Under the pieces are notes generated by a model. The model was not told where the DNA came from, did no database searches, and saw nothing but the letters and a program-made list of their open reading frames with translations. The translations under genes were made by a program, and so were the position numbers. Positions 61,574 to 64,000 of a DNA stretch of 64,000 bases are shown here, one piece after another. Source of the DNA: Flavobacterium sp. SCGC AAA160-P02 (lineage in GTDB: Bacteria > Bacteroidota > Bacteroidia > Flavobacteriales > Flavobacteriaceae); NCBI GenBank assembly GCA_000383355.1, contig KB911093.1:1-64000 (forward strand), given 5' to 3'. Within the stretch, counting starts at the first letter, position 1. Every line of letters begins with the position of its first letter.

Positions 61574-63274
61574 TTATTTCTTTTTGTAAACAGAAACACC
61601 TTCTTTGATGGTTTCTAAAACTACGATTTCTTTAATTTCAGTTGGTGAAATTTTTAGTGGGTTTTTATCTAAAATAACCATATCTGCCAATTTCCCCTCT
61701 TGTAAAGTTCCTTTCTGGTCTTCTTCAAAATGTTGATAAGCAGACCAACTAGTAATAGATTGAAGTGCTTCGTAAGGAGTTAATTTTTCATGTTCTCCAA
61801 TTACTTTTCCAGAACGTGATTTTCTGTCTACAGAGATTCCTACCATACGCATTAGATTTGGCAATGCAACAGGAGCATCTGTATGAATCGTGATTTTTAA
61901 TCCTTTATTTAAAGCCGTTCTTGTTGGGCTTATAGTATTACCTAAGCTGTCTCCAATAATTTCTTTGTGCCAATCTCCCCAATAAAATGTATGTAAAGGA
62001 AAAAGAGAGGCAATTACATCTAAGTCTTTAAACGAATCTAATTGATCTTCTCTTACATACTGACCATGAATGAGAACATTTCTTCTATTTGTATTTCCAT
62101 ATTTAGCAGCTATCGGTTTCATTGTCCTAATCATTTGATCCATGGCAGCATCTCCATTGGCATGTGTATGAATTTGCCAATTATTTTTAAATCCTTTTTC
62201 ATATATAGCAATTACTGAACTATCATTTGGAATTGCTGGATACCCAAGATATCCTTCTTTAGCACCATCAGGAGGCAATAAATAAGGTAGTGTTCTCCAT
62301 GCAGTTCTTCCTTGAGGAGAACCGTCTAAAGTTAATTTCATTCCTCCAATACGATAATTATTGTCATAAGACCTACTATTCCATTTAGACCCCATATACT
62401 TGTCTACAAATAAATAATCTACATAACTTACTACATCTAATTTTAGTTTACCTGCTTTGGACGCATTTACCAACATTTCATGATTTTCCATAGCCCTTCC
62501 TTCTTGAGCTGTTGTATAGCCAAATGATAATGCCATTTCTTGTCCTGCTTCAAAAAAATGATCTGCAGCTTCCTTTGATGTTGGATTTAAAACTTTAAGC
62601 ATGTATGGAATAGCGGCTAACTCTTCTAAAACTCCGTTAGGTTCATTACCGTTTTCTCTTCTAATAATGCCACCTTCAGGGTTTTTAGTTTCAGAAGTAA
62701 TCATTAACAGTTCTAATGCTTTAGAGTTTACTACAGCAAAATGACCTGAAATATGAATAATCATAATGGGAAACTCTGTAGATACTTGATCTAAATCATG
62801 CTTTGTTGGAAATCTTTTTTCCTTTAAAACAGAATCATCAAACCCCATCCCAAAAATCCAACCTGTTAAAGCTCTGTTTTCAGGAGTATTCCAGGTTTTT
62901 AAAATACTAATTAATGTTGCAATGTCTTTTGCTCCTGCATCAGGTGGTGGTAATATCTTTGCTCCAATTGCTTGAGCAGAAAATGAAGCAAAATGTGCAT
63001 GACCATCTATAAAGCCTGGCAAAAGAGTCTTTCCTTCTAAATTAATCATTTGATGATTATTTCCAGCAATCTTCATAGCTTCTTCTGAAGAACCTACAAA
63101 TTGTATTTTCTTGTTTTTTACAACAAGGGCTTCAGCATATGCCGGAGAATTTCCTTCCATGGTAATGATATCACCATTAAAATAAACAATTGATCTTAAG
63201 TTTTCTTGTGGGTTATCTTGTTTACAGTTGATAAAACTAATAAGTAGCAGTAAAATTATGTGAATTTTTTTCAT
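61574..63274 (-). CDS. Amidohydrolase-family lipoprotein (YtcJ-like)
   Basis: 566 aa. Lipobox LISFINC (C18). Amidohydrolase metal motifs: GFIDGHAHF, IHTHANGDAAMDQ, VLIHGQYV and HTDAPV; C-terminal beta domain with LADMVILDKNPL. YtcJ-type enzymes hydrolyse amides or imides; substrate unknown. Convergent with the Rieske gene, with a 16-bp gap. Confidence 0.88.
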   Translation of the reverse strand: MKKIHIILLLLISFINCKQDNPQENLRSIVYFNGDIITMEGNSPAYAEALVVKNKKIQFVGSSEEAMKIAGNNHQMINLEGKTLLPGFIDGHAHFASFSAQAIGAKILPPPDAGAKDIATLISILKTWNTPENRALTGWIFGMGFDDSVLKEKRFPTKHDLDQVSTEFPIMIIHISGHFAVVNSKALELLMITSETKNPEGGIIRRENGNEPNGVLEELAAIPYMLKVLNPTSKEAADHFFEAGQEMALSFGYTTAQEGRAMENHEMLVNASKAGKLKLDVVSYVDYLFVDKYMGSKWNSRSYDNNYRIGGMKLTLDGSPQGRTAWRTLPYLLPPDGAKEGYLGYPAIPNDSSVIAIYEKGFKNNWQIHTHANGDAAMDQMIRTMKPIAAKYGNTNRRNVLIHGQYVREDQLDSFKDLDVIASLFPLHTFYWGDWHKEIIGDSLGNTISPTRTALNKGLKITIHTDAPVALPNLMRMVGISVDRKSRSGKVIGEHEKLTPYEALQSITSWSAYQHFEEDQKGTLQEGKLADMVILDKNPLKISPTEIKEIVVLETIKEGVSVYKKK

Positions 63275-63351
63275 GGTTAGAGGATGTTTAAAATAATTTT
63301 AACTAAATATACTAAAAAACTGAAGAAGATCTTATTCAAAAAAAAAGTTGC

Positions 63352-63386
63352 ATAAAAAAAAGGCTACAAATTTAAATTTGTAGCCC
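63352..63386 (-). terminator. Intrinsic terminator of the right-edge csp gene
   Basis: Perfect 24-bp palindrome 63362-63385 (arms GGCTACAAATTT/AAATTTGTAGCC), followed on the minus strand by a run of T. Confidence 0.85.
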
Positions 63387-63407
63387 TTGTATATTATTGA
63401 TGATAGA

Positions 63408-63797
63408 TTACTTTTTTAATGTAACTTTTACAGCATTCATACCTTTCATACCTCGTTCTAATTCAAAGGTAACTTTATCGTTTTCAGCAATTTCATCTAT
63501 GATACCACTAACATGAGTGAAATACTTTTCTTGGTTTTCTGTATCTATAATAAAACCAAAACCTTTTGAGGAATCAAAAAATGAAACTTTACCATTTCTA
63601 ACAGGATCAACCTTATCAGCTTCTGTCATTTTAGGAACACTAATCTCTATATTCTTTGCTTTTATCTTAACCTTTAACGATGGATCTGGCGGAGTGTCTG
63701 TTAAATTTCCATTATGGTCTACATAAGCAAATTCAATTCCTTTGCTTCCATTTTCCTTTAGCTCAGCTTTCCTAGCCTCCAATATTTGCAGCATCAT
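63408..63797 (-). CDS. Cold-shock-domain protein, apparently missing its usual N-terminus
   Basis: 129 aa. The cold-shock domain (about 68-129: NGKVSFFDSSKGFGFIIDTENQEKYFTHVSGI) is intact, with the linker AYVDHNGNLTDTPPDP that this flavobacterial type shares. Family members normally begin with a longer lysine-rich segment; here homology seems to start at about residue 7 (EARKAEL), and the first six codons (MMLQIL) are the complement of the adjacent TonB-like frame. The gene probably lost its promoter and first codons at the 63780 junction, or the assembly is joined here. Confidence 0.7.
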   Translation of the reverse strand: MMLQILEARKAELKENGSKGIEFAYVDHNGNLTDTPPDPSLKVKIKAKNIEISVPKMTEADKVDPVRNGKVSFFDSSKGFGFIIDTENQEKYFTHVSGIIDEIAENDKVTFELERGMKGMNAVKVTLKK

Positions 63798-64000
63798 TAT
63801 ACTTAAGCAGCAACCAAGGAGCCTATTCTGAAGAAGATGGTAGTTTTATAATTACCGATGTTATTCCTGGTTCTTACAATTTAACAGCTAGTTTTGTTGG
63901 CTTTGATTCACAAACAAAATTTAATGTTATTATTAAATCTAAAGGAAACCGCTCGTTTAATTTTATTTTAATTGAATCTTTTGAATCTTTAGAAGAAGTA
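63776..64000 (+). pseudogene. Headless TonB-dependent-receptor-like frame (start missing, right end off window)
   Basis: Open frame of 75 codons running off the right edge. Translation gives ASLYLSSNQGAYSEEDG, then IITDVIPGSYNLTASFVGFD and a following acidic LIESFESLEEV, the carboxypeptidase-like domain that precedes the TonB plug of a SusC/FecA-type receptor. An in-frame TAG at 63773-63775 lies upstream and no ATG, GTG or TTG or signal peptide precedes the domain. The 5' end therefore appears deleted. Confidence 0.7.

Follow-up and report, generated by a model that had tools for sequence, protein, structure and literature searches.

The five bases at 63777–63781 of the analysed DNA are, with high confidence, a false inverted (fold-back) join made during amplification or assembly, with no real biological feature behind them. 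In the assembly, two chromosomal sites ~9 kb apart are joined back to front, and two genes lose their starts at this point: a cold-shock-domain gene (csp) and a gene for a TonB-dependent receptor. Most likely, the join is a chimera from whole-genome amplification of very little DNA. The window, by which we mean the whole analysed stretch of 64,000 bases, comprises bases 1–64000 of contig C4 (72,763 bases) in an assembly of Flavobacterium sp. SCGC AAA160-P02 that has 80 contigs and 2.54 Mb and is 88.8% complete. The pieces present in this assembly indicate that both genes are intact in the organism. The following features surround the join.

63408–63797, minus strand: decapitated cold-shock-domain gene, 129-aa open reading frame (ORF) (PF00313, E = 6.3e-14; native frame)
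63687–63781, minus strand: csp stretch that recurs in inverted form as the final 95 bases of C4 (C4:72669–72763; 100% over 95 bases)
63773–63775, plus strand: TAG met by the receptor frame when read upstream across the join (frame reading)
63777–63781, no strand: very probable false join; CTCCA, common to both native sequences (5-base overlap of the exact-match walks made from either side)
63777–63958, plus strand: beginning of the receptor fragment, matching the final 182 bases of contig C40 (100% over 182 bases)
63777–64000, plus strand: decapitated TonB-dependent receptor frame, extending beyond the window as far as C4:66022 (the continuation holds PF00593 and PF07715)

Two genes truncated at one point

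The csp ORF in the window begins MMLQILEARK. Its codons 1–5 and the first base of codon 6 (63782–63797) come from the receptor side of the join and are foreign to the gene, as the initial annotation of this DNA had read them; relatives' matches to the ORF mostly begin at residue 6 or 7. That annotation had also noted the absence of the lysine-rich start usual for the family, and rightly so: the start stands just before the last 95 bases of C4, where the native csp frame reads MAKSQQTFNKSEKEKKRLKKREDKRKKMEARKAEL... through the contig end. A lysine-rich start is likewise present in 24 of 27 relatives' csp loci (L010–L036), the other three (L012, L029 and L036) yielding no csp frame under the motif filter of our script. 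The short starts in the window are therefore abnormal for the family.

The receptor frame opens mid-domain in the window. Read upstream across the join, it gives ...S*PPIFAASLYLSS..., in frame with the TAG at 63773–63775, and frame reading bears out the earlier remark that no start codon lies in this frame between the TAG and the join. The missing start stands just before the last 182 bases of C40. The end of C40 encodes a hydrophobic N-terminus followed by a CarboxypepD_reg (carboxypeptidase-like) domain, and the native receptor read from C40 is an 806-codon open frame with this hydrophobic N-terminus.

Aligning the window to these native pieces placed the breakpoint exactly and confirmed that csp and the receptor frame lose their 5′ ends at the same point. 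The native csp sequence equals the window up to 63781, so that the window and the C4 end diverge at 63782; the native receptor sequence equals the window from 63777, with divergence from C40 at 63776. Searching the genome with 63300–64000 returned, besides the query itself, two full-identity matches (the C4 end and the C40 end) and three short ones (27 to 46 bases, 80–93%). Two simpler accounts of the truncation, short N-termini native to these proteins and a frameshifted receptor start farther upstream, were rejected, as the native pieces and the relatives have long N-termini.

The initial annotation had left the choice between a deletion and a false join, and the second part of that proposal stands. 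Loss of both gene starts and a shared promoter through a fixed deletion would account for the missing 5′ ends of csp and the receptor frame in the window, but it has next to no probability: the 5′ ends of both genes are found in the same assembly, nothing has been deleted, and the two genes are not divergent neighbours in relatives.

Native arrangement of the locus

In four close relatives (L042, L039, G010 and G014), receptor and csp lie on one strand, receptor first, and the matched parts are separated by 3.8 to 5.3 kb. These relatives do have an intervening segment, a point that had been suggested as a check, and the supposed pair of divergent neighbours with a shared promoter does not exist in them. 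The fullest comparison is provided by L042, an independent, uncultured Flavobacteriaceae MAG whose receptor is 90% identical. Its order is MATE (−), thioesterase (+), DEAD-box (+), a 145-aa protein (−) and receptor (+), followed by haloperoxidase-like (−), DEAD-box (+), csp (+), amidohydrolase (+) and Rieske (−). This order is obtained by following C40 with the part of C4 past 63777 and then with the window side in reverse orientation. The same order is kept over the covered parts of L039, G010 (L119) and G014 (L121), the last two having an additional DEAD-box gene, and a short contig (L040) carries receptor, DEAD-box and csp on one strand. When a 4-kb query across the join was taken to G010 and G014, it split at query position 2015–2025, with the pieces on opposite strands. 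Gene names were verified with Pfam, which gave no match for the 145-aa protein; the haloperoxidase-like protein is named from DUF6851 and a vanadium chloroperoxidase domain match below its cut-off.

The neighbourhood itself varies among relatives. The amidohydrolase gene (window 61574–63274) lies between csp and Rieske both here, on the other strand, and in L042, and is absent from that position in G010 and G014, a one-gene gain or loss. Among 10 more distant loci, 8 hold only the receptor among the markers. In L061:9130–10001 (Flavobacteriaceae bacterium D16) and L058:9029–10001 (Croceitalea dokdonensis), csp immediately precedes the receptor on its strand; these csp genes have full N-termini and stand in line with the receptor, unlike the head-to-head pair in the window.

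Resemblance to amplification chimeras

For E. coli single-cell MDA, the part of the report by Lasken and Stockwell (2007; PMC1855051) that counts chimeras gives 406 of 475 as inverted, 337 of these 406 with partners <10 kb apart, and more than 70% of chimeras as primed at 2–21 shared bases. The join at 63777–63781 has the same form. Its second segment is inverted; the shared stretch, CTCCA, is 5 bases long and so falls within 2–21 bases; and the two breakpoints lie 8,888 bases apart in the native order of the Flavobacterium sp. SCGC AAA160-P02 genome, within the <10 kb that is usual for such partners. The native arrangement is present in the same assembly, at the ends of C4 and C40. Random joins shared at least 5 bases in 0.9% of 200,000 trials. 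As described in that part of PMC1855051, the published inverted chimeras are alike in being inverted, in sharing few bases, in having partners at such distances (~9 kb here), in the native sequences also being present and in occurring several to a genome. They differ in that they were counted in reads, whereas those here have been built into contigs.

Inverted copies at contig ends across the assembly

Ends with this sign are not confined to C4. Of the 160 contig ends in the assembly, 17 (belonging to 16 of the 80 contigs) copy a stretch of their own contig, and all 17 copies are inverted, with none direct. Two of the 17 belong to C11, whose two ends match each other. The copies are 95–283 bases long and at least 98% identical, and nine of them measure exactly 95 bases. 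They span <10 kb in 10 cases and >10 kb in 7, up to 43 kb; the latter share exceeds that in the chimera counts of PMC1855051, where it is 69 of 406 inverted chimeras. The survey covered all 160 contig ends, amounting to 1,418,433 of 2,544,614 bases, and thus misses copies of other interior stretches; matches of <90 or >1000 bases were left out of the count. At the seven joins whose breakpoint is fixed by a third contig end, the shared stretches are 5, 7, 4, 1, 2, 11 and 10 bases, so that six fall within 2–21 bases and one shares only 1 base.

As a control, we took contig starts of G014: 0 of 20 have a copy in their initial 20 kb, compared with 6 of 27 in the present assembly; the control is a small sample from a genome that may differ in its sequencing. 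Further joins were compared with G010 and G014. The C16 join had no match in either, and the C26 join had one short 72% match, in G014 only. For C57, the tested interior point is contiguous in these relatives, and its false join would therefore be at the contig end. The inverted end copy there lies at C57:109600–115700; a join at the contig end would have 10 shared bases.

These counts bear on whether the join could be a natural inversion. Bacteroidota are known for invertible outer-membrane receptor loci, and if the 8.9-kb segment were truly invertible (phase variation) and the sample contained cells of either orientation, both arrangements would appear in one assembly, where they are indeed found at 100% identity. 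We nevertheless regard such a segment as very improbable. The breakpoints share only 5 bases, and a search of 300 bases on either side of both native breakpoints gave no strong match as inverted repeats, the best matches being short and not an inverted pair at the breakpoints. The five main ORFs of the segment are the receptor, the haloperoxidase-like gene, two DEAD-box genes and the desaturase, with no recombinase among them, and both breakpoints destroy genes. A natural inversion in part of a population should also leave the reciprocal junction, which is absent from the assembly: the native receptor head is present once, as is the native csp head (leaving aside an unrelated match of 60 bases to the latter at 80%), and the two are not joined to each other. 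Finally, inverted copies are present at 16 further contig ends. It is likewise extremely improbable that the 8.9-kb segment undergoes a rare real inversion in part of the population, by a 5-base illegitimate exchange that switches off receptor and csp together.

Proposed origin of the join

We infer that the sample was amplified by MDA and that the chimera arose there and not in library making, through strand-level steps such as the following. The native order runs from C40 through the receptor, the haloperoxidase-like gene, two DEAD-box genes, the desaturase and csp to the amidohydrolase and the Rieske oxygenase; these last two lie in the window, where the other strand is shown. In the course of MDA, a growing 3′ end that was being copied through csp would have been displaced and would have annealed via ~5 bases (CTCCA) to single strand ~8.9 kb away on the same branched molecule. 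Backward extension of the annealed end would then have linked csp and the receptor in inverted orientation. The chimeric path would have been taken by the assembler, so that C4 reads A, S, inverted A and stops on re-entering A, and C40 stops shortly after running into S (A being the side that carries csp, and S the segment entered at the receptor). A polymerase produces such an A, S, inverted A arrangement if a 3′ end within A folds back on the distal end of S and is extended in the direction of A.

At a branch, an assembler with a top k of 95 would be expected to leave overlaps of precisely 95 bases. Such behaviour also speaks for a chimera that owes nothing to MDA and arose in library preparation or in the assembler itself. 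That origin has very little likelihood, as an assembler needs a shared k-mer and only 5 bases are common here, and library chimeras would have no evident reason to be inverted in 17 of 17 cases and <10 kb apart in 10 of 17. In the methods passage of PMC10066038, a single-cell assembly pipeline used SPAdes with k 22,55,95, trimmed 200 bases off contig ends and dropped contigs <2 kb; contigs here go down to 1,027 bases, so the agreement with the pipeline of that passage is in the k value only. The corresponding passage of PMC9771814 names no k, and none of the 8 papers listed in a literature search contains the k series as a phrase.

Taken with the resemblance to the chimeras in the counts of PMC1855051, the inverted end copies make it probable that this is a single-amplified genome. 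Searching contig ends for inverted copies offers a simple chimera check that needs no reads, and 16 of 80 contigs carry this sign. Close to such joins in this assembly, truncated genes, the order of genes and seeming operons are not to be taken as biology.

Two further observations concern contig relationships. At the opposite end of the window, positions 1–243 correspond to C23:8267–8507 (99.2% identity), adjoining another inverted copy in C23, and C4 may natively continue into part of C23. Separately, C9, C11, C18 and C79 share identical stretches of 16 to 24 kb; these redundant contigs may inflate the contamination figure of the assembly.
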